26,132 nucleotides of DNA from the IMG/VR virus record IMGVR_UViG_3300027858_000195, positions 1 through 26,132 of that record, one strand, 5' to 3'. Shown piece after piece: positions 1,290 through 22,230 of this stretch. The translations under genes and the position numbers were made by a program. Position 1 is the first letter of the stretch. Each line of letters begins with the position of its first letter. Below the pieces are notes generated by a model, which was given only the letters and a program-made list of their open reading frames with translations, searched no databases and was not told the origin of the DNA. This DNA comes from a virus.

Positions 1290-2348
1290 TTGACGGAAAC
1301 CATAAACGCATTATACGGAACTAACACGAACGCAGACGGAATCGACATCGAAGCAATCGCGCAAGAGTTCACGGATTACCTTAACGAGTTTCATTCGTAT
1401 CAGCAACCGTATGACGATGAAATGGACGCTAAACTTTACGAACAATTCGCGGGCATCTTACGTAAGCAGGCGAAATGGGGTTACTTCGATTGGTCGAAAA
1501 AGCGACCGTACTTCGGACCATCGTCAGCAGGCCGTAGCGACCGTGAATTGTACGAAAAGGTACGCAAGTCGCCTCGTGATAATACGAAGCCACAACCGCA
1601 GCAACGTAGGTGGACGGCATTAGGCGAACAAATCGGCGGTCTAGTACAACGCGAAATCATGTTAGCCGAACGCCACTATCCGAAGTTTACAGGCAAACCG
1701 AGTCGATTCCGATTCAAACGTAATTCAGAAGGCGCACCACTTTACGAACACTTTACGAAGAAGATGCACGAAGTTAATTACGACGGTGAGGAATTCGCTA
1801 TCTTCGGATTAGGCGACGGCATACTCGAATATCTGACGGACGATGGCGAGTGGCTACCGATTGGACTCGAAGTTAAATCGCGACAAACATCGTATGCTGA
1901 AACGAGTAAAGCGCGTATGCAAGAAGTTAAATCGGATCATCGCTTGCAGACGGTCTGTTACGGAGAAATGTACGGACTCAATTACTTCCTTACGATATAC
2001 CTAAATTCGTCGAAGAAGGCGTGGAATATGACGGACGAGGAACGTGTTAAATCGCCAGACTTCCGCGTGTTCGGATACGAGATTACGGAAGACGAGAAGA
2101 ACGAAGTTAAAGCGAAGTTTGCGAGAGTTACACGAATGGCTCGCGAAGGTAAAGCGCCGAAAGTCGAATTAGAATCGTGGCTATTCAACGATTACAAGAC
2201 GCATATTGCGAAGTCACTAACCGACGAAGAATACGAAGAATTACGTCAGCAAGCGTTGTTAATGCAGAATTCGGGATTACCCGACTGGAAGAAACGTCAG
2301 TATGCGCAGGCAGTCGACTTCATAACGCAAACTAGGGAATCGGTATGA
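1290..2348 (+). CDS. PD-(D/E)XK (RecB/Cas4-like) nuclease
   Basis: Probable DNA exonuclease or nuclease acting in phage recombination and replication. The 352-residue protein starts at TTG 1290 after AAAGGAGG with good spacing; no ATG fits. The nuclease core shows Asp176 in GLGDGILEY, then Glu194-x-Lys196 in GLEVKSR, giving the D...ExK metal site. It is followed by the DHRLQTVCYGEMYGL segment, which fits the QxxxY motif of RecB/Cas4-type nucleases. No cysteine cluster for an iron-sulfur site is present, unlike Cas4 or AddB. The N-terminal 110 residues are charged and unassigned. The TGA overlaps the ATG of the RuvC-like gene, so the two are probably co-translated and may act on the same recombination intermediates. 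Confidence 0.8.
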   Translation: MTETINALYGTNTNADGIDIEAIAQEFTDYLNEFHSYQQPYDDEMDAKLYEQFAGILRKQAKWGYFDWSKKRPYFGPSSAGRSDRELYEKVRKSPRDNTKPQPQQRRWTALGEQIGGLVQREIMLAERHYPKFTGKPSRFRFKRNSEGAPLYEHFTKKMHEVNYDGEEFAIFGLGDGILEYLTDDGEWLPIGLEVKSRQTSYAETSKARMQEVKSDHRLQTVCYGEMYGLNYFLTIYLNSSKKAWNMTDEERVKSPDFRVFGYEITEDEKNEVKAKFARVTRMAREGKAPKVELESWLFNDYKTHIAKSLTDEEYEELRQQALLMQNSGLPDWKKRQYAQAVDFITQTRESV

Positions 2349-3055: not shown

Positions 3056-5305
3056 TTGACGATTGAACACCGATTATTAACAGACGGATTTATTAACGAT
3101 TATCCCGAGTTTCCATCGCACATGACAGCGTTAGGACAATTCGTATATTACCGAACATATTCACGATTCTTACCCGAACATGGACGTAGGGAAACGTGGA
3201 AAGAAACGTGCCGACGTGCTACGGAGTACAACGTTGGTCTTGGCGTTAAGCATATGCAGAAAATCGGATATACCGTTGATTACGCTAAATTCCGTAAGGA
3301 AGCCGAGGACTTCTTCGATAACATGTTCAACCTACGTCAGTTCCTTTCGGGAAGAACACTTTGGGTTGGTGGTGCTGACGGAGGCGTAGCGGATAAATAC
3401 CCACTCGCTAACTTTAACTGCTCATTCGTTAACATCCGATCATGGAACGACTTAGGCGATTTATTCTACTTATTACTCGTAGGAACTGGCGTAGGCTTCA
3501 AAGCTACGAAAGAGTTCGCGCGTAACTTACCGCCAATACGCGACAACATCGAAGTTATCCACGAACCATTCGTTCAACGTTATCCACTCGTAAAAGTAGC
3601 GGAAACATCGTTATTCGTAATCGAAGGCGGTAAGAAAGCGGTCATTCACGTAGGCGATTCGAAGGAAGGCTGGGTCGAGGCTTTACGCATATTCCTACGT
3701 TTGCACAACGAAAGAGAATACGAAGGTATCGAACGAATCGGTATTTTCTACGATTACATCCGACCGAACGGCGCTCGACTTTCAACATTCGGAGGAACAG
3801 CGTCGGGATTCGAACCATTACGCGATATGTTCAACGGTATCAGCCGAGTATTCCAAAACGAAATCGACCCGTCGTTAGCACCGTTAGATGACGCAGGTAA
3901 CGGATACAAGCGAGTGCGCCCTGTCCATATCCTTGATATCGGTAATCTAATCGGAAATAACGTAGTGGTCGGAGGTGTTCGACGCACAGCGGAAATCTTC
4001 CTATTAGACGCAGATGATTACGAGTCGATGTTCGCTAAGTACGGAATTAACGGTATTTGGAACGATGAACAACACGAAAAGGTTATCGCCGCACTACGTA
4101 AGATTGGCGAAACACACACGGCTGACTTCTTAGCGTCGTTAAAGACGTTTGACAGCGAGGCACGTCCGTTACATCACCGCAGAATGTCGAACAACTCGGT
4201 GGCATTCGAAAAGAAACCATCACGCGACGTACTTTCGCTAATATTCGAAATCATGCAAGCGGAAGGTGAGCCGGGGCTAATTAACCTCGAAGAAGCACGT
4301 AGACGACGCCCTAACGCAGAAGGCTTAAATCCATGCGCGGAAATATTGCTCGATAGTTACGGCGTATGTAACTTAACTACCGTCAACTTAGCGCAATTCG
4401 TAAAGGAATTAAACGGAGAAAACTACATCGATGTTAACGGACTAATCGAGGCACAACGTAAATCAGCGCGTGCGGGATTACGTATGACACTCGCGGAATT
4501 AGAGATACCGCATTGGAACGCAGTACAACAGCGTGACCGATTACTCGGAACATCGTTGACAGGCGTTAAAGACGCGTTCGCATTAATCGATTATACAGAC
4601 GAAGAAGAAGCGCAATTACTGAAAATCCTCGGTGACGCTGCTCGAGAAGAAGCCGATTTATATGCGAAGGAAATGCGTGTGTCGTCGCCATTACTTGTAA
4701 CTACGGTTAAACCCGAGGGAACGATATCGCAGGTGGCAGGCGGAGTATCAAGCGGACTTCACTATTCGCACTCACCGTACTATATCCGTCGTATTCGAAT
4801 AAACGCAACTGATCCGTTAGCAAAAGCGGTTATGTCGATTGGATGGAAAGTTCAAGCGGAAGTGGGGACTCCAGGTAATACGGAATGGGAACGCCTTGCA
4901 AACGCACGCACCTTAGTCATCGAATTCCCTGTCGCAAGTGGCGCAAGTAAAACGAAGGATGACGTATATGTCGGCGAACAATTCGATACGTACTTCCGAT
5001 TCCAAGCGGAATACACCGAACACAACTCGTCCAATACGATTCACGTTAGACCCGACGAATGGAAAACGGTAGAAGAAATCGTTTATCACGGATGGGATGA
5101 ATACGTAGGCGTGTCGTTCTTAGCTTACGACGGTGGTACGTATAAGTTAGCACCGTACGAGGCGATTACGCAAGAGGAATTCGAAAGAATGAGCGAAGGT
5201 CTAGCGAAGTTTGACCCGTCATTACTCGAGAAATTCGAAACTACTGGAGAATACGATTTAGACGGACTTGACGGCTGCGAAGGCGGTATTTGTCCTATCC
5301 GATAA
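3056..5305 (+). CDS. nrdJ: Adenosylcobalamin-dependent (class II, monomeric) ribonucleotide reductase
   Basis: Reduces ribonucleoside triphosphates to deoxyribonucleotides using a thiyl radical made from coenzyme B12. Start TTG 3056 gives 749 residues, near the 739 of the Lactobacillus leichmannii enzyme; a longer frame from 2933 would overlap the previous gene and lacks an RBS, while GGAAGGGAAG precedes 3056. Key residues are all present: Cys122 in NFNCSF (substrate-reducing pair), Cys427-Ala-Glu429 in NPCAEI (thiyl radical Cys and catalytic Glu), Cys438 in VCNLTTVNL (second of the pair, 11 residues after the radical Cys as in the reference), and the C-terminal shuttle Cys741/Cys746 in CEGGICPIR, three residues from the end. 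It works aerobically or anaerobically without a second subunit. The upstream thioredoxin is the likely reductant. Confidence 0.93.
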
Positions 5306-5312
5306 CAGAAAC

Positions 5313-5317
5313 GGAGG
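5313..5317 (+). promoter_or_regulatory. Ribosome binding site pointing to an ATA start
   Basis: GGAGG lies 8 bases after the RNR stop and 8 bases before ATA 5326. It decides the start of the HNH gene: an in-frame TTG at 5290 lies upstream of this site, inside the RNR gene. Confidence 0.7.
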
Positions 5318-5325
5318 TTACTGTC

Positions 5326-5931
5326 ATAGAAAAAGAATGCCTTGATTGTAAGCTAGTTTTACCTATATCGGATTATCAAATAGGAAGCGGTAAGTTAGGG
5401 TACAAACCGCAATGTAAAAAGTGTACGAAAGCGAGAGAAATAGCTAGACAAGAGGATGACCCGTTACACGCCAAATTAACTATAATGGCAGACGGAATCC
5501 TAAGCCGCACAAAATACGTTCATTGTACACCTTTTAACAAGTCATATAAAGAACGTGGGATTAAGTGTTTGATAGGAGAAAACAAAGCAGAAGTACGCTC
5601 CATGCTCAATAAACATTTTAGGCATGATGTCATACGCCTTTTAAGGAGAGATGAAAACCCTTCTGTAGATAGAATTGACCCATACAGGCATTACGAATTA
5701 GGTAATATTCAAATAATACCTCTACGTGAGAACAGAAGGCGCGCCGACATGAGTTATAGATTTAAGCCTGTAAAAGTCACTGACGTCGATGGAAATATAA
5801 CAATGTACGAAAGTATAAAAGGCGCAACTAAAGCTTTAGGGTATCCCTACGCAAGTGTTGTCAGATGGGGTTATTCCAATAAACCAAATAAACAAGGCTA
5901 TTTAATCGAAATATTAGGGGGCGGTCGATAG
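5326..5931 (+). CDS. HNH homing endonuclease with N-terminal zinc ribbon and NUMOD-like tail
   Basis: Free-standing endonuclease, 201 residues from the proposed ATA start. That start gives MEKECLDCKLV, how such proteins normally begin; the alternative TTG 5290 adds 12 residues. The order is: zinc ribbon (Cys5, Cys8, Cys30, Cys33); helical region; HNH-type core PSVDRIDPYRHYELGNIQIIPLREN at about 112-136, with Arg-Ile-Asp, His122 and Asn127; then a C-terminal segment with VTDVDGNITMYESIKGATKALG that resembles the NUMOD1 DNA-binding module. Codon use (many AAA, TGT, ATA, AGA) is unlike the CG-rich codons of the neighbours, indicating recent entry. It sits directly behind the conserved RNR gene, a frequent homing target. 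The TAG stop overlaps the next GTG. Confidence 0.8.
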   Translation: MEKECLDCKLVLPISDYQIGSGKLGYKPQCKKCTKAREIARQEDDPLHAKLTIMADGILSRTKYVHCTPFNKSYKERGIKCLIGENKAEVRSMLNKHFRHDVIRLLRRDENPSVDRIDPYRHYELGNIQIIPLRENRRRADMSYRFKPVKVTDVDGNITMYESIKGATKALGYPYASVVRWGYSNKPNKQGYLIEILGGGR

Positions 5932-11014: not shown

Positions 11015-11066
11015 TGCGTAGATAGTCTGACGGGACGAAAAGCGGAACCCTACCGCCTGCTACGCA
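11015..11066 (+). ncRNA. Possible structured leader element upstream of the methyltransferase
   Basis: TGCGTAG (11015-11021) pairs perfectly with CTACGCA (11060-11066). Inside are a GCGG/CCGC hairpin (11042-11045 with 11053-11056) and a weak GTC/GAC hairpin, giving a three-way-junction shape of 52 bases. TACGCA at 11085-11090, next to the RBS, could compete for the same 5' strand. No known riboswitch or ribozyme was recognised. Confidence 0.35.
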
Positions 11067-11107
11067 TTTATTTACGTTAGGGAATACGCAAATGGGAGCG
11101 ATGGAGA

Positions 11108-11911
11108 ATGACGTTAGAATTAAATACCGTGTATGAAGGCGATTGCCTTACGTTAATGAAGGATATACCGGATAAGAGCGTTGATATGATATTATGCGAT
11201 TTACCGTATGGGACTACCGCGTGTAAATGGGATACGGTTATTCCGTTTGAACCGTTGTGGAAGGAGTATGAACGCGTTATAAAAGATAACGGTGCGATTG
11301 TGTTAACCGCTAGTCAGCCGTTTACATCTGCGTTGATAATGAGCAACCCCAAAATGTATAAATACAACTTCGTCTGGGAAAAAAGCAAAGGCTCTAACTT
11401 CACGCACGCTAAGAATATGCCGATTAAATTCCATGAGGATGTATGCGTGTTTAGCAAAGCACCTATCGGACATAAAGTGCAATTAGGCACTAAGAGAATG
11501 ATGTATAATCCGCAAGGGTTAATTAAAGTAGACCGCAAGTGGTCGCGTCCTAAGAAATACGAAAACGGACACAACCTTTCTAGGGAAAGTCATAAACTGG
11601 AACGTATTATAGAATTTACAAATTATCCTACTAGCATACTAAAATACGGTAATTCGGATAATCGCGAAAGAGGGTTACACCCTACGCAAAAGCCTGTAAT
11701 GTTATTCGAGCATCTAATCCGCACATATACAAACGAAGGCGACACGGTACTCGACAATTGCCTCGGTTCCGGAACTACAGCAATCGCGGCAATCAACACT
11801 AATCGCAACTATATCGGAATAGAACAAGACGCCGAATACGTAGCAATCGCACGCCAGCGTATCAGCGACGCTATGCAAACGGAAGTCGACGGAGGTGTTC
11901 GCGTTGACTGA
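11108..11911 (+). CDS. DNA methyltransferase (amino-methylating, beta-type order)
   Basis: Transfers a methyl group from S-adenosylmethionine to an adenine N6 or cytosine N4. The 267-residue protein has the catalytic motif first (LCDLPYGT, a DPPY variant, at about 29-36), then a target-recognition stretch, and the SAM-binding motif near the end (DNCLGSGTTAIAAI, about 217-230), preceded by LHPTQKPVMLFEHLI. This catalytic-then-SAM order is that of the beta class. GGGAG at 11094-11098 is the RBS for ATG 11108; ATG 11101 is out of frame. No restriction enzyme gene lies beside it, so it is an orphan enzyme. A paralogue is encoded at 19412. Its specificity cannot be read from the sequence. Confidence 0.88.
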   Translation: MTLELNTVYEGDCLTLMKDIPDKSVDMILCDLPYGTTACKWDTVIPFEPLWKEYERVIKDNGAIVLTASQPFTSALIMSNPKMYKYNFVWEKSKGSNFTHAKNMPIKFHEDVCVFSKAPIGHKVQLGTKRMMYNPQGLIKVDRKWSRPKKYENGHNLSRESHKLERIIEFTNYPTSILKYGNSDNRERGLHPTQKPVMLFEHLIRTYTNEGDTVLDNCLGSGTTAIAAINTNRNYIGIEQDAEYVAIARQRISDAMQTEVDGGVRVD

Positions 11912-12782
11912 CGCAATTAATCGCTACCAGGACGATGATGGTCGCGAAATCGTATACGGATATGCAGACGAAGTATCGATACAAACGAATGAAACGTTAG
12001 ACGAATGGCGTGACGCTAAACGACGTAAGGAATTACGCGAAAGTGGTCCTACGCGTTACTACGTTAACTGCTACCACGATACGGCGAAGCTACTTAGCGA
12101 AACGTTAAAGGTGACGGAGTTAGGCGTATTAATGAAGTTGATTCCGTATTTGAAGATGAATAGCGGAGGTCAACTAGTTCACAACGGAAGTCGCATGACA
12201 TCGTCAGCTATCGCGAAAGCCATCGGTAAAGGTAAACGCACAACAGACGAATTGCTAGCGGACTTAGTTTCGCATGGCGTGTTATTTACGGAACGTGACG
12301 GCAGATTCGTTGTTTACGGCATTAACGAGTTTTACCATTCCATCGGAAAGCACGTACGCAAAACGTATTATACGAAAGTGTACCAGGTGAAGACGCGTAC
12401 AGACATCGCTAATCTAACGATACAAGCCGCTGGACTACTGTATAAGATGATCCCGTATTTTAACTACGAGTATTGCTGTTTATGCGATAACCCGGAAGAA
12501 ACGGATAAGACGAAACTACGGTATATGTCGCATATTCAATTGGCGCAACTTATCGGAGTCGACCGCAAGTTCATCGATAGGTATATGAAGGAGTTACGCA
12601 AATACGGCTTTGTAGCGACGTTCCTACTGCATGAATCGGAGTTATACGTAATTAATCCGGACATCATGTACCGCAAGCGTGACGAATATACATCTTATGC
12701 AGAAGCGTTACGTACATTATTCGTGATAAGCGAGAGTTATACGGAACAGATAAACGTGAAGCTAGCGGACTTACCGTATTAA
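11904..12782 (+). CDS. Replication initiator-like protein with two winged-helix domains
   Basis: Start TTG 11904 (292 residues) is preferred because GGAGG at 11891-11895 lies 8 bases before it; GTG 11895 would overlap that RBS. It overlaps the methyltransferase stop. Two related winged-helix units can be seen: about 70-150 (ELGVLMKLIPYLKMNSGG...MTSSAIAKAIGKGKRTTDELLADLVSHGVLF) and about 173-255 (QAAGLLYKMIPYFNYEYC...MSHIQLAQLIGVDRKFIDRYMKELRKYGFV). Both have a hydrophobic LxKLIPY/LYKMIPY helix, then an HTH and wing. This duplicated layout is that of RepA/RepE-type iteron-binding initiators. Immediately downstream are perfect 20-bp repeats. A transcription regulator of the same fold is the alternative. 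Confidence 0.6.
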   Translation: MTDAINRYQDDDGREIVYGYADEVSIQTNETLDEWRDAKRRKELRESGPTRYYVNCYHDTAKLLSETLKVTELGVLMKLIPYLKMNSGGQLVHNGSRMTSSAIAKAIGKGKRTTDELLADLVSHGVLFTERDGRFVVYGINEFYHSIGKHVRKTYYTKVYQVKTRTDIANLTIQAAGLLYKMIPYFNYEYCCLCDNPEETDKTKLRYMSHIQLAQLIGVDRKFIDRYMKELRKYGFVATFLLHESELYVINPDIMYRKRDEYTSYAEALRTLFVISESYTEQINVKLADLPY

Positions 12783-13118: not shown

Positions 13119-13190
13119 AATACTATCGAAGTATTAAACGGAGTTAACACTAACGGTAATACTGCGTTAGGAAATACCGCTACATTGCGG
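13119..13190 (+). promoter_or_regulatory. Three consecutive short hairpins before a small ORF
   Basis: AATACT/AGTATT (13119-13135), CTAACG/CGTTAG (13150-13170) and CCGC/GCGG (13177-13190) follow each other, ending 10 bases before GGAGGTGA. They could form a structured 5' leader; no promoter was identified. Confidence 0.35.
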
Positions 13191-13216
13191 AATACTATAC
13201 GGAGGTGAAACGATAA

Positions 13217-13303
13217 ATGGCGAAGTTAAACGATAGACAAATCGCAGCATTGTTACGGAGCCATATCGGATCACTCTTATATAGAAGGAACGCGTGTGGA
13301 TGA
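13217..13303 (+). CDS. Short ORF, 28 aa, with a strong ribosome binding site
   Basis: ATG 13217 follows GGAGGTGA (13201-13208), one of the best ribosome binding sites in the window. The peptide begins MAKLNDRQIAALLRSHIGSL and is basic and helix-prone, then ends at TGA 13301. It may be a real micro-protein, or the surviving 5' end of a decayed gene, since the following 400 bases are full of stops in this frame. Confidence 0.4.
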   Translation: MAKLNDRQIAALLRSHIGSLLYRRNACG

Positions 13304-13306
13304 CGG

Positions 13307-13610
13307 TGCATAACGTAACAGAGCGGTGAATAGCGTAGTATTGCGTAAGTTAGGCGAAGCGTTCACCACGGATAGCCCTTCGATAACCGGTGTGTCTCGT
13401 ATGCATATCGTATACATTAACGGGTAACGATCGTGTTCGGTTACTATTCGTAAGTATGCGTGGTTACTACGTTTATAGCGTGTGCATAACGGATGCATAA
13501 CGGTTAAGTAAGCGGAAGTAGTGAAACGTTGGTACGACAAGGGTTGGCGGAGTATCTAGTTTACATAATTAAAGTTATGGGAAGCTACGATGGCATAAAT
13601 ATGCATACCG
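13307..13610 (+). repeat. Five copies of TGCATANCG
   Basis: Copies at 13307-13315 (TGCATAACG), 13402-13410 (TGCATATCG), 13483-13491 and 13494-13502 (both TGCATAACG, tandem with an 11-base period) and 13602-13610 (TGCATACCG). A further half-match, TATGCAACGG, follows the last. All are on the same strand within 304 bases of non-coding sequence, as expected for protein-binding iterons. Confidence 0.6.
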
Positions 13611-13661
13611 TATGCAACGGTAATGGCGATATACTGGCGTTTTTGAAGACCGGGGCGCCTC

Positions 13662-13685
13662 CGTGGTTCAGCCGCTGACACCACG
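13662..13685 (+). repeat. GC-rich hairpin upstream of the nuclease gene
   Basis: CGTGGTTCAG (13662-13671) pairs with CTGACACCACG (13675-13685) through ten base pairs with one bulged C and a CCG loop. GGGG before and CCC after could extend it. Its local GC content is well above the surroundings, and no T-run follows. Confidence 0.6.
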
Positions 13686-13731
13686 CCCGCAGTAAATTCT
13701 TACAAATTTTCAGAAGCGGAGGGTAAACGTA

Positions 13732-15138
13732 ATGGCATCTAAATACTCACACAAACGGAAGATGACGAAAGAAGAGGTCACCACGGAGTTAATGCGTATG
13801 CAAGACGAAGGTCACTCGATGAAAACAACGGATTTTGAACCGTGGTTTTACCGCAGGATTAACGATTGTTTCGGAAGCTATAAGGTAGCTAAGAATGAGC
13901 TCGGTATATCTACGGAAAGAAAGCCGTATGAGAGCGGTAGGATGCGGTTACTTAGTGATGTGATTGAGGAAACGAAGATAGCGGTTTTACTAGTCGCCGA
14001 CATGGGCGAAATGCGTGATAATTACCGTCACATCCTAGATTATAGCCGAACTTACTTAGGGGATTCCGGTAAGGTATTCGAATTAGCGGGCGTAGAAAAG
14101 ACTGCAAGTAGAGAACGCGTGTGGACACCTCATTATTGGACGGAAGATGTAATACGTGAAGAATTAGCGGAAGCTATCCGTGTGACAGGCAGTAGTACGT
14201 CTAACGCGATATCACAGACCGATTACAAACGTGTGGTTAATGCGGTTATATCTTATTACGGAACGTGGAACGCAGGTCTTGTAGCGCTAGGTTACGAGGT
14301 GGCGTATATATCACCGAAAATGGATTGGACACGAGAGTACGCGAAAGAAGTAGCGTTAGACTCGATAGTAAACGGTGTTGAACCGACTCTCACGGCGTTA
14401 TCGTCGGCTATACGAGGATTCAATTCTTACGTTAGTAAAGAATTTAGCGGGATATCAGACTTCTTCAAATACGTCGGAATTTGCCCGTTATCCGACCGCC
14501 CCCAACAAGAAATACAACGTATATATCGTCCTACATACAAGACGCTATACGGCATACAACGTGAGATTATCCGTTTATGGTACATTGGTTGTCCGTTAAA
14601 TTATAAATTTATACGTAAGAATCGTTACCATGTAATTCATACGGCTAATACACTAATCGGATCGTGGCGCCAAGCAGTCGAAAGTGTCGGTATTAATTAC
14701 GCTGACATCACGAAAGCATCCGATACAAACGTATTATCCGAGTGTGGCACGGAATTCGAATTATTGTTCGCGGAAATACTAACGGAATTAAATTACGAAT
14801 ATATCCGTGAAGGCGAAGGTTTACCGGAAGTGTTCGACGACTTTACGTTAAAGCCCGATTTCATACTACCGAATTGGCGTTGGATTGACTGCAAGTTATC
14901 GGAATGGACGGACGTTAGCGAAATGTTAAAGCGGTACGAACCGATGAATCCTAACGGAATGACAGTCGTTTATTTGCGTGGCAAGAAACGAAGCATTGAA
15001 CGCGGTAGAAAATGGCGATATGAACACGTAAGTGTATATTGTTTTACGGAACAACTGACGAAAGATAGACGAAAGTATTACGAAGATAAGTTAGACGAAA
15101 TAGCACGTAAAGCAGAAGTAGGCGCTGTCGCGAAATGA
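13732..15138 (+). CDS. Putative homing endonuclease: tandem HTH-like repeats plus PD-(D/E)XK domain
   Basis: 468 residues; ATG 13732 with GCGGAGGG upstream. About five degenerate repeats of 45-60 residues can be seen, best at 15-59 (ELMRMQDEG...INDCFGSYKVAKNELGI), 140-188 (ending YYGTWNAGLVALGY), 205-250 and 275-321 (ending LIGSWRQAVESVGI). Each follows helix, then FGSWxxAxxxxGI, as in homing-endonuclease-associated repeats that bind DNA. The C-terminal domain (about 337-420) is a restriction-like fold: TEFELLFAEIL, then KPDFILPNWRWIDCKLSEW with Pro375-Asp376 and Asp386-x-Lys388, a PD-(D/E)XK site. There is no HNH, LAGLIDADG or GIY-YIG motif. Sitting just before the terminase genes, it is likely a selfish nuclease. 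Alternatively a phage restriction-type or packaging nuclease. Confidence 0.65.
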   Translation: MASKYSHKRKMTKEEVTTELMRMQDEGHSMKTTDFEPWFYRRINDCFGSYKVAKNELGISTERKPYESGRMRLLSDVIEETKIAVLLVADMGEMRDNYRHILDYSRTYLGDSGKVFELAGVEKTASRERVWTPHYWTEDVIREELAEAIRVTGSSTSNAISQTDYKRVVNAVISYYGTWNAGLVALGYEVAYISPKMDWTREYAKEVALDSIVNGVEPTLTALSSAIRGFNSYVSKEFSGISDFFKYVGICPLSDRPQQEIQRIYRPTYKTLYGIQREIIRLWYIGCPLNYKFIRKNRYHVIHTANTLIGSWRQAVESVGINYADITKASDTNVLSECGTEFELLFAEILTELNYEYIREGEGLPEVFDDFTLKPDFILPNWRWIDCKLSEWTDVSEMLKRYEPMNPNGMTVVYLRGKKRSIERGRKWRYEHVSVYCFTEQLTKDRRKYYEDKLDEIARKAEVGAVAK

Positions 15139-15149
15139 TGGCGCTTTTT
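15120..15149 (+). terminator. Terminator-like hairpin at the end of the nuclease gene
   Basis: AGGCGC (15120-15125) pairs with GCGCTT (15141-15146), one wobble, with TTTTT at 15145-15149. The 5' arm lies inside the last codons of the gene. Moderate stability only. Confidence 0.45.
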
Positions 15150-15156
15150 ATTATGC

Positions 15157-15182
15157 GCTACTGCCGGAACACAAGCGGTAGC
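15157..15182 (+). repeat. Hairpin directly upstream of the small terminase RBS
   Basis: GCTAC (15157-15161) pairs with GTAGC (15178-15182), and GC/GC or CTGCCG/CGGTAG pairings extend it. GAAGGAGG follows at once, so it may influence translation of terS, or belong to the packaging start region. Confidence 0.4.
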
Positions 15183-15199
15183 AGAAGGAGGCGAAATCA

Positions 15200-15643
15200 A
15201 TGGCGAAATCAAGACGCGATAAACTATCGGAGTCACTTACGATAGCACAGCAGAAAGCAGCGTATCTTCTATTGGAAAACGAAATGCTACCGACGGCTGA
15301 ACAACGGACGCAAGAGGAAATAGCGAAGGAAGTCGGAGTTGACCGTATTTCCCTTTACCGATGGCGCAAGGAGAATCAATCGTTTATCGAATTTAAGAAG
15401 GAAGTCGCGAAGGATTACTTATCGGATGCAGTCGGTATATTCGCGAAGCAATTAATACGCTCAATCGAAGGTACTAACGGAGTTCCTTCATCGAAAGCGC
15501 TCGATCTTTACGCGAAGATGATGGGCTTCATTAAGACGGAACACAGCGTAGAAATTACGAATGGTGGCGCGAAGTCAAACGAACAAATCACGGAAGAACT
15601 TGCGGAACTCGACGCGTTGTTAAGCGAAGACAAAGCGGAATAA
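15200..15643 (+). CDS. terS: Terminase small subunit
   Basis: DNA-recognition subunit of the packaging motor. 147 residues, ATG 15200 after AGAAGGAGG. The N-terminal region has a helix-turn-helix at about 35-60 (RTQEEIAKEVGVDRISLYRWRKE), followed by a helical, oligomerisation-type middle with KALDLYAKMMGFIKTE and an acidic tail (TEELAELDALLSEDKAE) that would contact the large subunit. It resembles the HTH-containing small terminases of Bacillus phages of the phBC6A51 type. The large subunit gene begins 15 bases after its stop. The pac or cos site it would bind was not identified. Confidence 0.82.
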   Translation: MAKSRRDKLSESLTIAQQKAAYLLLENEMLPTAEQRTQEEIAKEVGVDRISLYRWRKENQSFIEFKKEVAKDYLSDAVGIFAKQLIRSIEGTNGVPSSKALDLYAKMMGFIKTEHSVEITNGGAKSNEQITEELAELDALLSEDKAE

Positions 15644-15658
15644 GGAGGTGCGCGCCAT

Positions 15659-17368
15659 ATGGCGTTCGTAGACGGACAATGGCTAGCGTATGAAGCGCGC
15701 GCCGAACGTATTGAATTAATATCGGAGAAGTTCGATAAGCTACGTAAGGGATTCGAAAAAGGCGTGCTAACTGACGCGTTGAAAGCGGAAATGCTCGATA
15801 CTGGACGCGAGTTAAAACGTTTAAGACGTGTGCATCGCGGAGAATACGACGTTCTCTACTTTACTTACGAATATTTCAGCGGTGAACGAAATGACGCGAA
15901 CGTATCGAATTTAATACCGCAACCTCAAACGTTAGACGGTGCTGCGGATTTCCATAAGGAATTATGCGGACTTCTCGACGAGGTAACGAAGGGTAATATC
16001 GATACGCATATCGGATGGTCGGTTGGACGTAAGCATGCGAAGACCGCATATTTAAGTAACGCGTATTTATGTCACCAAATCGTATACCGCCTTCAACGCT
16101 ACATTATCGAAGTGTCGGAAACAACGGACGTAGCAGGCGACTTTATCAAGTGGACGGTGAACCAATTAAAATTTAACGATAAATTGCGTGAGGACTTCGG
16201 TTCTTTACTGCATCCTAAACCGTCGATGAACGAAATCGATAACAAATACGAATTTATTACCGCAACAGGCACGAAGGTAGAAGCTAAGGGTATCGGAACA
16301 CAAATGCGAGGACTACGCCATTTGTCTGATCGTCCTGGGCTTTTTATTTTGGACGATTTAGAGAGCGGGGACAATACGAACACGCCCGAACTACGCGCGA
16401 AGAACTTGCGGTGGTTCCGTTCGGAAATGTTAGAGGCGTTGGACTTCGGTGGACGTTGTATCTACATGGGAACAATCGTGCATTACGATAGTCTTTTAAA
16501 TCACGTTATCACAAAGCGTAAGGATTTCACCTCGCGTAAGTTTCCGGCTATCTTGTCGTGGTCTGAACGCGATGACTTATGGGACGAATGGCGAGCGCTA
16601 TATAACGCTGACGACCCAAACGCAGTCATTAACGCAGAAGCGTTTTTTAACGCGAATGAAGACGAAATGGTACGAGGGTCGTCCGTTTTATGGGCGGAGA
16701 AATATTCGTATAAATACTTCATGGAAAAACTCGAAGCAATGGGCGCAAGAGCGTTCAACCAAGAATACTTAGGTAATCCGGTCGATGAAGAATCGCAAGT
16801 GTTTAAAGCGGAAGATTTCGTTTACTACACCGATAGCGATATTGAAAACGGTGACTTCACGTATTACGCTGCGGTCGATTTAGCGATGGGTAAAGCACGC
16901 GGAGATTACTCGGCAATGATTACGCTGGCTAAACGAGCAGGGTCGGAAGTTTGCTACGTAGTAGACGCCCATATCGTTAAAGCGAAACCGGACGAATTCA
17001 TGAAGGACATCGTAAGTAGAACGCTTAAATACCAATACGAAGCACTAGCGGTAGAGTCGCAGGCTTTCCAAGAATACTTCGCAGATGAACTCGGTAAGGC
17101 GTTACAACGCGTCGGGTATCCCGCGAATACACGCCTTAAACAAGTTAAACAGAAGATACGGAAGCAGTTACGTATCGAGGCGTTAGAACCGGATATAAAA
17201 GCAGGAAGAATACGTTTTAAAAAGGATCAACGGTTACTACTCGAAATGCTCGAACTTTACCCGAATCATAATAACGATGATGGTCCCGATGCTTTATCAG
17301 ACGCTTTTAAAATAGCGAAGTCTAGCACGGTTAAAGTCGAAACAGTAAGACGAAATAATCGATGGTAA
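15659..17368 (+). CDS. terL: Terminase large subunit
   Basis: ATP-driven DNA packaging motor with a nuclease that cuts concatemers. 569 residues; ATG 15659 with AAGGAGG upstream. ATPase domain: deviant Walker A VGRKHAKT at about 122-129, and Walker B LFILDDLE at 228-235 with GTIVHYD (271-277) as coupling motif. RNase H-like nuclease domain: AAVDLAMGKARGDYSAMITLAK at 404-425 (first Asp407), AVESQAF at 464-470, and the C-terminal DDGPDALSDAFKIA supplying the last acidic residue. The N-terminal 60 residues are a charged helical extension. It is followed by portal, the usual order. Confidence 0.92.
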   Translation: MAFVDGQWLAYEARAERIELISEKFDKLRKGFEKGVLTDALKAEMLDTGRELKRLRRVHRGEYDVLYFTYEYFSGERNDANVSNLIPQPQTLDGAADFHKELCGLLDEVTKGNIDTHIGWSVGRKHAKTAYLSNAYLCHQIVYRLQRYIIEVSETTDVAGDFIKWTVNQLKFNDKLREDFGSLLHPKPSMNEIDNKYEFITATGTKVEAKGIGTQMRGLRHLSDRPGLFILDDLESGDNTNTPELRAKNLRWFRSEMLEALDFGGRCIYMGTIVHYDSLLNHVITKRKDFTSRKFPAILSWSERDDLWDEWRALYNADDPNAVINAEAFFNANEDEMVRGSSVLWAEKYSYKYFMEKLEAMGARAFNQEYLGNPVDEESQVFKAEDFVYYTDSDIENGDFTYYAAVDLAMGKARGDYSAMITLAKRAGSEVCYVVDAHIVKAKPDEFMKDIVSRTLKYQYEALAVESQAFQEYFADELGKALQRVGYPANTRLKQVKQKIRKQLRIEALEPDIKAGRIRFKKDQRLLLEMLELYPNHNNDDGPDALSDAFKIAKSSTVKVETVRRNNRW

Positions 17369-17395
17369 CTAAATCACGAAAGGAGGCGTAAACAC

Positions 17396-18898
17396 TTGGC
17401 GGATTTCAACATATTAGCACCGGAGCCGATGGACGAATTATTATTCACACCGTTTCAGCAGTCGTTAGGCGAGGCGGAGCATCAGCGTTTACAGCAACAA
17501 TACCGCAATTACTTATACTACGAAGGTTATCAGCATAAAGGCGCGTCAGACGAACTCGTCAAAGCCGAAGACGTACCGCGTCCACCCGGACTTGACTACG
17601 ACCCTACGCGATTCGTAAGCAACTACGCAAGGCTGTTGGTTTCGAAGAAAGCGAAGTGGCAAATGTCGGGCGCACACGGTATCGACGTCAGAACACGTCA
17701 AATAGGCGAAGAAGGATCGGCGGAACAGCAAACGGAATACAAACGCGCCGAAGCGTTAGAGGCGATAATCAATCAGTTATGGCGTGAGAACAACGCGAAG
17801 TCACGTTTAATACAAGCGGCGCGCGACCGTCTGATTGCCGGACGTGTAGCGGTGGAAATTAACTTCAATCCGCGTACGGGTAAACTCGTATGGTTATGGC
17901 ATCCGGATACTGAAACGTTTCCCGTCTTTTCTGATGATGGATTCGAAGATTTAATCGCGCTTCACTTCGTCCGTGAGAAAACGATAGACGGCGAGTTGTT
18001 TTACCGTAAACGCACGTTCGAAATGATTGACGACGAATGTTGGTTCTCCGAAGGTTTGTACAATACGGATTTAAAACGCGTAAAAGTATATACGGAGAAA
18101 GCATCGATGCAGTTACCGTTCTTACCCGTCGTATTAGTTCCGATAGAAGACTTAGCGGGAGAGCCGGCATTATCGAAGGAATTCGACGATATCAAAACGC
18201 TGTCAGCGATATTAAACGCAATGAATGAAGACGCAGTAGACGCGCTTAAATTCGAAATGTTCGGCATCACGGCAGTCATCAACGCACCTGCCGGAACAGC
18301 AGCGAAAATGGAAATCGCACCAGGCGCAGTTGTCGAGGTTACGGGTAGTGGCGACGCTACACCGGATATTAAGAAAATCGAAGGTAGCTTCGGATGGAAT
18401 GAAGCGCATAAGACGATGATTGAGCGAACGAAAGCGACAATGTACGAATTAACTTCGCTACCACAATCGGCAATCGGCGACTTGAATTTCGGCGGTATGA
18501 ATAACGATGCAATGCGGATAGTCTTCCACGATATCATCCAAGACACCGAAGAACATTGGTTAACGTGGGGTCCGAAGTTAGCGGAGTTACACGAAAAGTC
18601 CGTGCGCTACTTACAAGCGCGTGCAACTACGGCTAAAACGTTCGCATACGACAAAGAAACGTTACGACTAATCGGCACCGAGAATTACGATAACGAAGTT
18701 AAATTCGCGTTACCTTTACCGGATAACCGCGCAGACTTAATCGATTTACTAGCGTTAGAAATGAGCGTCGGACTCGAATCGCAAGCAGGCGCATTGTCGA
18801 GAGCAGGCGTAGAGAATACCGCAGCTAAACGCGAGGAAATTGCAACGGATTTAAAACGTTTACAGGCGCAACAAGACCCATATCCATTAGGCACGTAA
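17396..18898 (+). CDS. Portal protein (SPP1 gp6-like)
   Basis: Forms the dodecameric ring through which DNA enters the head. TTG 17396 with AAAGGAGG upstream; 500 residues, close to the 503 of SPP1 gp6. Features of the family: NYARLLVSKKAKWQMSG near 77-93, AARDRLIAGRVAVEINF at about 141-157, a beta-rich wing with LVWLWHPDTETFPVFSDDGFEDLIALHFVREK at 163-195, PVVLVPIEDL at 243-252, a long helix before ELTSLPQSAIGDLNFGGMNNDAMRIVF at about 350-376, and an acidic/helical crown. Located directly after terL. Confidence 0.9.
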   Translation: MADFNILAPEPMDELLFTPFQQSLGEAEHQRLQQQYRNYLYYEGYQHKGASDELVKAEDVPRPPGLDYDPTRFVSNYARLLVSKKAKWQMSGAHGIDVRTRQIGEEGSAEQQTEYKRAEALEAIINQLWRENNAKSRLIQAARDRLIAGRVAVEINFNPRTGKLVWLWHPDTETFPVFSDDGFEDLIALHFVREKTIDGELFYRKRTFEMIDDECWFSEGLYNTDLKRVKVYTEKASMQLPFLPVVLVPIEDLAGEPALSKEFDDIKTLSAILNAMNEDAVDALKFEMFGITAVINAPAGTAAKMEIAPGAVVEVTGSGDATPDIKKIEGSFGWNEAHKTMIERTKATMYELTSLPQSAIGDLNFGGMNNDAMRIVFHDIIQDTEEHWLTWGPKLAELHEKSVRYLQARATTAKTFAYDKETLRLIGTENYDNEVKFALPLPDNRADLIDLLALEMSVGLESQAGALSRAGVENTAAKREEIATDLKRLQAQQDPYPLGT

Positions 18899-19263: not shown

Positions 19264-19422
19264 ATGGCGGACAATAAGTCGCGCGAAGTAGGCAAGTTAC
19301 ACGTAAAAGTCGAGGTTGACGTATCAGAAGCATTAACGGGATTAAAGGCGTTACAACGGGAGGCACGCGAAGCTACGAAGGTTTTACGCGAGTTAGAGGC
19401 GGTGTCGCGTAATGCTGAATAA
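19264..19422 (+). CDS. Small hypothetical protein, 52 aa
   Basis: Not recognised. The ATG at 19264, after GAGGCG, is chosen; an ORF start at 19138 would lie inside the previous gene. The sequence KLHVKVEVDVSEALTGLKALQREAREATKVLREL has a short strand followed by a long amphipathic helix, as often found at the start of phage tail tape-measure or minor structural proteins. It overlaps the methyltransferase start by 11 bases. Confidence 0.6.
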   Translation: MADNKSREVGKLHVKVEVDVSEALTGLKALQREAREATKVLRELEAVSRNAE

Positions 19423-20353
19423 AATTACGCAAGGCGATTGCCTAGTCGAGTCCGATAACATCGCGAGTGGCTCGGTAGATTTAATATTGACGGATTTACC
19501 TTACGGGACGGTTACAGGTGCGCCGAAGAATTGGACGGTAAGTAACGAAAGTAGTCACAAGTGGGACTTAGCGTTGACTCCGAAAGATGTATACGCAATA
19601 GCAAATCGCATCCTACGTAAGAACGGTAAAATGGTGCTATTCAGCCAAGAGCCATATACAACGCGGTTGATAACGGAGGCTAATGCAAATGTACCGTTTT
19701 CGTACCGTGCGATATGGGAGAAGGATAACTTCGCAAATGCGTTGCTATGTAATAAGGCGATGGTCGGATATTACGAGGACGTACTAATATTCAGTAAAAC
19801 GCATGACACAGACGGAATACACCCATTAAGGGTGTACTTTAAACTCGTTATGGATTACGTTGGATTAAATTTAAAACAGATAAATCTAACGTTAGGGCAT
19901 CGGAGAGCAGAGCATACTTTTTACGTAGCAAGCACGCAATACGGATTATGTACCGAACAGACATACGACGAACTTATCCGCGTGTTCAATATTGACGAAA
20001 TGTACGGCTTTATCGAGTATAGCGAGCTTAAGCGTATTGATAACGAGTTCAAACGTGATTTACCGAGTACGTTTAATTTATGGGAAGACGGAAAGTATAA
20101 ATCGAATATCCTTCGATACAAAAAGGATTATAACGGATACCACCCTACCCAAAAACCCGTAGCATTACTCGAAGATTTAATTAAAACGTTTAGTAACGAA
20201 GGTAACACAGTTGTCGATTTAACCGCGGGCAGTGGTAGCACGGCAGTAGCGTCGATTAATACGAGGCGTAACTTTATCGCTATCGAACAAGACACTAAGT
20301 ATGTGGAAATCGCAAGACAGCGTATTTCAGGCGCTTTACAGACGAATAAGTAA
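19412..20353 (+). CDS. Second DNA methyltransferase (paralogue of the one at 11108)
   Basis: 313 residues, amino-methyltransferase of the same motif order: LTDLPYGTVTG at about 27-37, target-recognition middle, then YHPTQKPVALLEDLIKTFSNEGNTVVDLTAGSGSTAVASI at about 241-280 with the SAM-binding motif. The ends of both enzymes are nearly the same (EQDxxYVxIARQRIS), so they share ancestry; the middle differs (an insert at about 135-220), so the target sites probably differ. ATG 19412 overlaps the preceding small gene. It is embedded between portal and scaffold in the structural operon, an odd place for a methyltransferase. No restriction partner is visible. Confidence 0.87.
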   Translation: MLNKITQGDCLVESDNIASGSVDLILTDLPYGTVTGAPKNWTVSNESSHKWDLALTPKDVYAIANRILRKNGKMVLFSQEPYTTRLITEANANVPFSYRAIWEKDNFANALLCNKAMVGYYEDVLIFSKTHDTDGIHPLRVYFKLVMDYVGLNLKQINLTLGHRRAEHTFYVASTQYGLCTEQTYDELIRVFNIDEMYGFIEYSELKRIDNEFKRDLPSTFNLWEDGKYKSNILRYKKDYNGYHPTQKPVALLEDLIKTFSNEGNTVVDLTAGSGSTAVASINTRRNFIAIEQDTKYVEIARQRISGALQTNK

Positions 20354-21408: not shown

Positions 21409-22230
21409 ATGGTTTGTAGAGATTGCGAAATTACAAAAGATGTTTCTGAATATTACGTGAAGATAAAAGAACCGTTAACAATGGACAGCGTTTGTAAAAG
21501 TTGCAGACGCGAAATCGCTCGTCAATACAGAATCAAAAACCCGAAACCACTTAAACCTAAAACTCCGAGAATGGACGGGTTTAGACTACTGCCAGAAGGT
21601 ATGCGTAAATGCGGGGATTGCGACGAAGTAAAAGAGCAGGATTTTTTCTACACAGACTCCACCCGAGCGTCAGGTACTTCCGTTTATTGTAAAGATTGTT
21701 CTAAAAGGCGATTCGAGAAAAAGATGGAAGTAAGAGGCGATGAAGTCATTGAATATAGGCGGAGATGGGCGGAAGAAAACCGCGAAATACTTCGAGAAAA
21801 ACATCGTGTGTATAGAATGGCTAACCTTGACAAAAAGGTCGTCATCGAAGCACGGCGACGCGCCCGTAAAATGTCTTTACCGGATACATTAACCCACGAA
21901 GAGACTAACGAAATATTAGCTTACTTCAAAGGTAAATGTGCGCTATGCGATGAACCATCAGAAGCACTTGACCATTTCATACCCATTAAAACGGAAATGG
22001 GCGGAACTACAAAAGAAAACATCATTCCACTATGTAAAGCAATGAATTCATCTAAAAGCGCAAGAAACCCGTTTAAGTGGGCGGAAACTTACTTAGACGA
22101 AAGCGCAAAAGAAAGGTTCATAACTCTAATTGAATATCTTTCAGACATCAACGGATTAACGGTAGAGCAATACCGCGAATTCGTTTTTTCATGTTTCAAA
22201 ACAAAAACAAAAAATAAAAACATTTCCTAG
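21409..22230 (+). CDS. HNH endonuclease with zinc ribbons, inserted before the capsid gene
   Basis: 273 residues; ATG 21409. Domains in order: zinc ribbon 1 (Cys3, Cys6, Cys29, Cys32), zinc ribbon 2 (Cys68, Cys71, Cys94, Cys97), a basic helix (100-160), then an HNH core at about 177-225: CALC (177-180), DHFIP with His189, and LCKAMNSSKSARNPFKW. In relatives this segment is normally LCxxCNSSKG, so one zinc-binding Cys is Met212 here; the general base His and Asn213 remain. Codon use (AAA, TGT, AGA) contrasts strongly with the flanking structural genes. It separates the decoration protein from the major capsid gene, a typical homing location. Confidence 0.82.
   Translation: MVCRDCEITKDVSEYYVKIKEPLTMDSVCKSCRREIARQYRIKNPKPLKPKTPRMDGFRLLPEGMRKCGDCDEVKEQDFFYTDSTRASGTSVYCKDCSKRRFEKKMEVRGDEVIEYRRRWAEENREILREKHRVYRMANLDKKVVIEARRRARKMSLPDTLTHEETNEILAYFKGKCALCDEPSEALDHFIPIKTEMGGTTKENIIPLCKAMNSSKSARNPFKWAETYLDESAKERFITLIEYLSDINGLTVEQYREFVFSCFKTKTKNKNIS

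Follow-up and report, generated by a model that had tools for sequence, protein, structure and literature searches.

A repeat-armed PD-(D/E)XK nuclease gene upstream of the terminase genes of a Bacillaceae-type phage: a probable free-standing homing endonuclease of a new type

Most knowledge of PD-(D/E)XK homing endonucleases comes from the intron enzyme I-Ssp6803I, which is small, lacks repeats and is encoded in a group I intron. They form one of six known families of homing endonucleases (PMC6083498). In this study we analyzed a virus record of 26,132 bases (IMG/VR record IMGVR_UViG_3300027858_000195; hereafter the window), a fragment which stems from a phage of Bacillaceae-type bacteria. 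Its gene P0001 (13732-15138, plus strand) encodes a protein of 468 amino acids that resembles I-Ssp6803I in having a PD-(D/E)XK catalytic motif in a putative homing-type enzyme, but differs from it in being a free-standing gene with five repeats before the nuclease. We consider it probable, at roughly 0.78, that P0001 represents a new PD-(D/E)XK type of free-standing homing endonuclease, where the homing part rests on population evidence. If true, this adds a free-standing, repeat-armed phage type to the PD-(D/E)XK homing endonucleases.

A preliminary description of the gene had named I-Ssp6803I as one known type. We found no evidence for such a relation, as no sequence similarity of P0001 to any solved structure was detected and Rfam revealed no intron in the window or in the related phage records L003 and L044; moreover, there was no split gene at the empty sites described below. 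A group I or II intron setting was therefore rejected. The catalytic domain of I-Bth0305I (3r3p), an EDxHD (Vsr-like) enzyme, was among the fold matches (probability 0.63), but the active site of P0001 reads E...PD...DxK instead of EDxHD and no sequence similarity was detected. The Type II nucleases Ecl18kI, PspGI, EcoT38I and EcoRII-C were the closest by fold, and EcoRII-C also by a weak Pfam match of the nuclease domain (E=0.006); however, the domains that flank the nuclease in P0001 are different and the gene is not linked to a companion methylase. Similar to the homing endonuclease genes (HEGs) T5orf172 and IPA-HNH that lie beside phage terminase genes, P0001 is an optional gene at a boundary of exchange, although it belongs to another catalytic family. 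The survey describing these HEGs mentions neither PDDEXK nor EDxHD (PMC10448857). We found no description of the combination of repeats and PD-(D/E)XK domain in the literature searched, most subscription papers being outside its coverage, and priority is uncertain.

The C-terminal part of P0001 (residues 333-468, about 136 amino acids; 14728-15135, plus strand) forms a PD-(D/E)XK nuclease domain, as judged by a family alignment, AlphaFold (AF2) and Foldseek. Among 17 aligned diverse domains the pattern G-x-x-F-E ... P-D ... D-x-K-L was invariant or nearly so. On the plus strand, it comprises the predicted active-site residue E343 in helix 1 (14758-14760, nearly invariant) as well as the invariant P375-D376 (14854-14859) and D386-x-K388 (14887-14895), which bears out the earlier reading of a PD...DxK motif. 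AlphaFold modelled the domain with a predicted local distance difference test (pLDDT) value of 81.3 and a predicted template modelling (pTM) score of 0.79. The model showed the core order alpha-beta-beta-beta-alpha-beta, comprising a helix, strands around PD and D-x-K, a helix and a strand. Restriction-type nucleases led the Foldseek search of the PDB, where EcoT38I, McrBC and Ecl18kI were the most confident matches for the domain model (probability 0.98-0.92) and PspGI matched the full-length model (probability 0.98). In the BFVD fold search a nucleocytoplasmic-virus protein ranked first (E 2e-4), followed by nuclease-named entries (E 0.003-0.02). Apart from scattered weak matches, no Pfam, NCBIfam or PHROGs model covers the nuclease domain, and a known family spanning the nuclease was found in none of four profile libraries. 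A nuclease profile searched against all PDB sequences retrieved no nuclease up to E 10. Arm-DNA-bind_5, AbiEi and GapS1 were rejected as function labels since their matches were weak and limited to single members each.

The N-terminal approximately 330 amino acids of P0001 consist of five three-helix units of about 61-71 amino acids each. The Pfam model HNH_repeat (PF18780) matched P0001 with E=1.2e-5, and its homologues L036, L040 and L044 reached 67.4 bits (E=1.4e-18), 58.2 bits (E=1.1e-15) and 49.5 bits (E=5.5e-13), respectively. A repeat hidden Markov model (HMM) built only from L036, L037, L039 and L040, leaving out P0001, found residues 12-60 (7.6 bits), 136-187 (16.3 bits) and 277-322 (21.8 bits). 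When the N-terminal region was shuffled 500 times, the top single domain scored 12.7 bits and the runner-up 5.7 bits; thus, two repeats are clear and repeat 1 is weak when taken alone. All repeats lie on the plus strand. Repeat 1 (residues 12-60, FGSYKVAKNELGI; 13765-13911) has AlphaFold helices at 13-25, 37-47 and 50-57, and repeat 3 (residues ~136-188, YGTWNAGLVALGY; 14137-14295) was identified by Pfam, the repeat HMM and AlphaFold. Repeat 5 (residues ~270-322, IGSWRQAVESVGI; 14539-14697) was recognized by the repeat HMM and AlphaFold. The degenerate repeat 2 (residues ~68-122; 13933-14097) was placed by spacing and by AlphaFold helices at 68-91, 95-109 and 112-118 of low confidence. For the likewise degenerate repeat 4 (residues ~198-251; 14323-14484) the equivalent repeat of L044 was weakly found, and AlphaFold gave helices at 201-213, 220-238 and 241-248. 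Both degenerate units keep the period, which runs through FGSYKVAKNELGI at residue 47, YLGDSGKVFELAGV at 108, YGTWNAGLVALGY at 176, FSGISDFFKYVGI at 238 and IGSWRQAVESVGI at 309, so that the original count of about five repeats holds. AlphaFold predicted three helices in all five units, mostly with low confidence in the middle ones; the full-length model was of low confidence overall (pLDDT 65.5, pTM 0.34) and was used for helix order only.

The preliminary description had also tied these repeats to HNH homing enzymes, to which, however, they are not specific. P0001 shares the predicted DNA-binding repeat with other HNH_repeat proteins but joins it to a PD-(D/E)XK domain, whereas further Bacillota proteins combine the repeat with a NERD-like nuclease, a helicase or something else; therefore, the repeats do not imply an HNH enzyme. 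An HNH catalytic domain gave no profile match in P0001 at E up to 1. Many Bacillota genomes contain frames of ~690-850 amino acids, such as L081, in which HNH_repeat lies within long helicase-like proteins, so that homing enzymes are not its only setting.

The homing reading is based on occupied and empty sites. The record L003 encodes a large (TerL) and a small terminase subunit (TerS) with 94% and 95% identity to those of the window, and it keeps the flanks of the window on the left (13176-13625, 74%) and on the right (15143-18883, 84%). Between these common flanks L003 has ~130 bp and the window ~1.5 kb, and the P0001 gene was not found anywhere in the 41.9-kb L003 record. Split alignment placed the right border of the inserted segment at 15137-15143 against the empty site L003:7472-7478 and the left border in a zone at 13626-13732, strong similarity to L003 stopping at ~13626. 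A second case was provided by L044, which encodes a full-length homologue (46% identity over 473 amino acids) in the same interval upstream of terS. TerL and TerS of L044 are only 50% and 48% identical to those of the window, whereas the nuclease domain is 70% identical. The L044 gene is missing from L103 (TerL 97%, same metagenome identifier) and L104 (TerL 94%), and homology to L044 resumes at L044:3185, 19 nt past the stop codon, in L103, L104, L108 and L109 alike. In the L104 alignment just 2 bp of the empty allele were unmatched, within CGGAA-AC-ATTTCCG, and the empty-site sequence forms the interrupted palindrome CGGAAA-CA-TTTCCG. As the left arm of this alignment was weak (score 20.5), the exact L044 insertion site is tentative. 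For L040, a genus-level search for an empty site found the neighbouring gene in no relative.

Accordingly, related phages without the gene at the same site, as predicted for a homing gene, were found for both the window (L003) and L044 (L103, L104, L108 and L109). Alleles with and without a gene at one site are a criterion for homing genes, and the two sets of empty sites support a homing-type behaviour. The P0001 gene thus looks mobile, and the relatives of two phages with the same spot empty suggest that it spread by homing. HEGs cluster near terminase, ribonucleotide reductase and capsid genes (PMC10448857), and the HEG-like genes of the window beside ribonucleotide reductase and capsid genes were counted in support of homing. 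Since natural empty sites are in hand, target mapping and homing tests can be done directly.

We propose that the five tandem helical (helix-turn-helix-like) HNH_repeat modules would recognize a long DNA site within the non-coding DNA that separates the dif-like site of the phage from terS. The PD-(D/E)XK domain, probably as a dimer, would then cut this site in co-infecting phage genomes without the gene, and recombinational repair would copy the gene into the cut genome. That P0001 is a dimer is a guess, suggested by the resemblance of its fold to restriction-type nucleases and by the possible palindrome. The gene's own terminator-like hairpin would leave transcription of terS little affected, so that the gene could sit upstream of terS. 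Non-synonymous p-distances between the window and L044 were 0.20 for the nuclease domain, 0.36 for TerL and 0.42 for the repeat region. The faster divergence of the repeats compared to the nuclease domain would be expected if targets shift. It is doubtful, although conceivable, that the family as a whole is modular, with one PD-(D/E)XK cutter and 1-6 DNA-reading HNH_repeat modules that evolve faster and determine which target is read and how long it is, by a logic like that of transcription activator-like effector (TALE) nucleases. With 1-6 repeats on one nuclease domain, the family is a natural set in which DNA recognition by HNH_repeats could be studied.

A Rossellomorea plasmid homologue of residues 334-461 (34.6% identity) served as the entry point to the family. 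Iterated profile searches of Bacillota genomes yielded relatives in 9 and then 13 of 397 genomes, and relatives were also detected in IMG/VR contigs. Their distribution is patchy, with occurrences in Bacillota prophages and phage-like records, and they carry 1-6 repeats: L031 and L059 have a single one, L037 has three, L036 five, and L039 and L040 six each. Among 50,697 named phages no tblastn match was obtained with P0001, the Rossellomorea homologue, L036, L040 or the L037 repeats as queries. Initial scans of viral sequences using P0001 and A3 were likewise negative. L028 and L029 were discarded as spurious homologues, being radical-SAM-like proteins. L045 and L046, both phage-like records, share a segment of 98% identity that comprises the gene with ~240 bp before it and 28 bp after it, while their flanks are otherwise unlike. 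Decayed copies were observed as well: a frameshifted one on a B. licheniformis plasmid record (L030) and a broken one in L071. Six within-family pairs had enough unsaturated change for an estimate of the ratio of non-synonymous to synonymous change (dN/dS), which was 0.07-0.14 in five of them; intact copies are mostly under purifying selection. L035 carries two tandem, diverged and intact family copies (214-1020 and 1498-2313, minus strand; synonymous distance 0.81, dN/dS 0.07). L072 (967-2385, minus strand) and L077 (1012-2772, plus strand) contain distantly related nuclease domains; their N-terminal regions are different, and their C-terminal parts are helical and possibly DNA-binding.

Several points weigh against a homing endonuclease of this kind. 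We infer cleavage, homing and the exact target, and likewise DNA binding by the repeats and homing over another transfer route. The left border in the window is uncertain by ~100 bp, and the insertions in the window and in L044 share an interval but not demonstrably the same sequence. The HNH_repeat score of P0001 (25.9 bits) is 0.1 bit below the Pfam gathering cut-off of 26, and not one Foldseek match in the PDB fell below E 0.001. The remaining pair, L032/L033, had a dN/dS of 0.65, which is based on few changes. Besides, the GC content of the gene (0.434) is near that of the phage (0.458), so that composition is uninformative on a recent arrival.

Among the other explanations, a domesticated interference nuclease fares best, although we regard it as unlikely. 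Such an enzyme would attack a conserved site in the DNA of competing phages or satellites, would be kept for the benefit of the phage and would be moved by ordinary recombination. The purifying selection in the family and the cassette-like spread between non-homologous flanks fit this role, and HEG-related nucleases are known to be reused that way (PMC10448857). However, interference alone does not predict a fixed interval with an identical right border in four empty relatives, and PADLOC gave no match to a defence family. Interference and homing are not mutually exclusive. A still smaller chance was assigned to a packaging accessory nuclease that works with terminase at a cos or pac site next to terS, like gp74 of HK97. 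This HNH nuclease has the same placement and acts in cos cleavage (PMC10448857), and the gene immediately precedes terS/terL in the window and in L044 and is near TerL in L037. Nevertheless, relatives with 94-97% TerL identity lack the gene, of 20 terminase-related records L044 alone has it, and other family members are located ahead of a tape-measure-like gene, next to a recombinase and a replication-type gene, or at non-phage loci. It is highly improbable that P0001 is an ordinary moron gene with another DNA role, acquired or lost by illegitimate or homologous recombination, the product of which would e.g. resolve junctions or act as a regulator that binds the dif region: despite a very weak domain match to a phage Holliday-junction-resolvase profile (E=0.35) and the adjoining dif-like site, a string of DNA-binding repeats with a restriction-type nuclease better fits a sequence-specific cutter, the varying repeat number fits a varying target length, and members are present far from any dif-like site.

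Homologues and the purifying selection in the family confirmed the P0001 open reading frame as a real gene, and its ATG is preceded by a Shine-Dalgarno-like GGAGG (13718-13722, plus strand). As previously described, it lies between the so-called origin-like region and the terminase genes, i.e. TerS (15200-15643; phrog_7344, E=2.5e-26) and TerL (15659-17368; phrog_38, E=3e-94), both on the plus strand. Approximately 0.95 kb without a convincing gene separate P0001 from a replication-type open reading frame (11895-12782). We found no evidence for an origin in this stretch; instead, it carries a dif/XerCD-like site adjoining the insertion (13558-13585, minus strand), which agrees with B. subtilis dif (sequence from PMC3025954) at 21 of 28 positions. 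Such sites occur upstream of terS in this phage group in either orientation (L003:7279, L004:7146 and 7218, L044:1282, L103:705, L104:214, L108:158, L109:209, L014:7247, L007:3089). They match dif in 20-24 of 28 bases, while 20 shuffled windows reached at most 19, which suggests that host XerCD is used for integration at dif or for dimer resolution.

The GC-rich hairpin upstream of P0001 mentioned in the preliminary description was no more stable than shuffled sequences (z 0.34), and its reading as a special element was not supported. A terminator-like hairpin (15120-15146, plus strand) includes the final codons and the stop codon of P0001 and is followed by T; an equivalent hairpin with other stem bases is present in L044. 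A terminator-like hairpin is also present at the empty L003 site itself, with its right arm at the border. Shielding of terS by a terminator, which the P0001 gene either carries or uses as its insertion point, may therefore be a possibility.

Other optional or nuclease-like genes were noted in the window. An Endonuclease-VII-like, HEG-like gene (5290-5931; phrog_1035; third-position GC content 0.34) overlaps the 3' end of the ribonucleotide reductase gene. A second one, HNH/Endo-VII-like (21409-22230), lies among capsid-region genes and is missing from L003, judged by the spacing of matching flanks, and represents a second optional nuclease. An int-alpA RNA (Rfam RF02996, 55.8 bits; 11015-11082, plus strand) closely precedes an N6/N4 DNA methylase gene (11108-11911). 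A paralogue of this gene is located at 19412-20353, and further ones in L003 at 3430-4212, 4648-5394 and ~11733-12491; these phages thus have several such methylase genes each, the number and place of which vary among close relatives.
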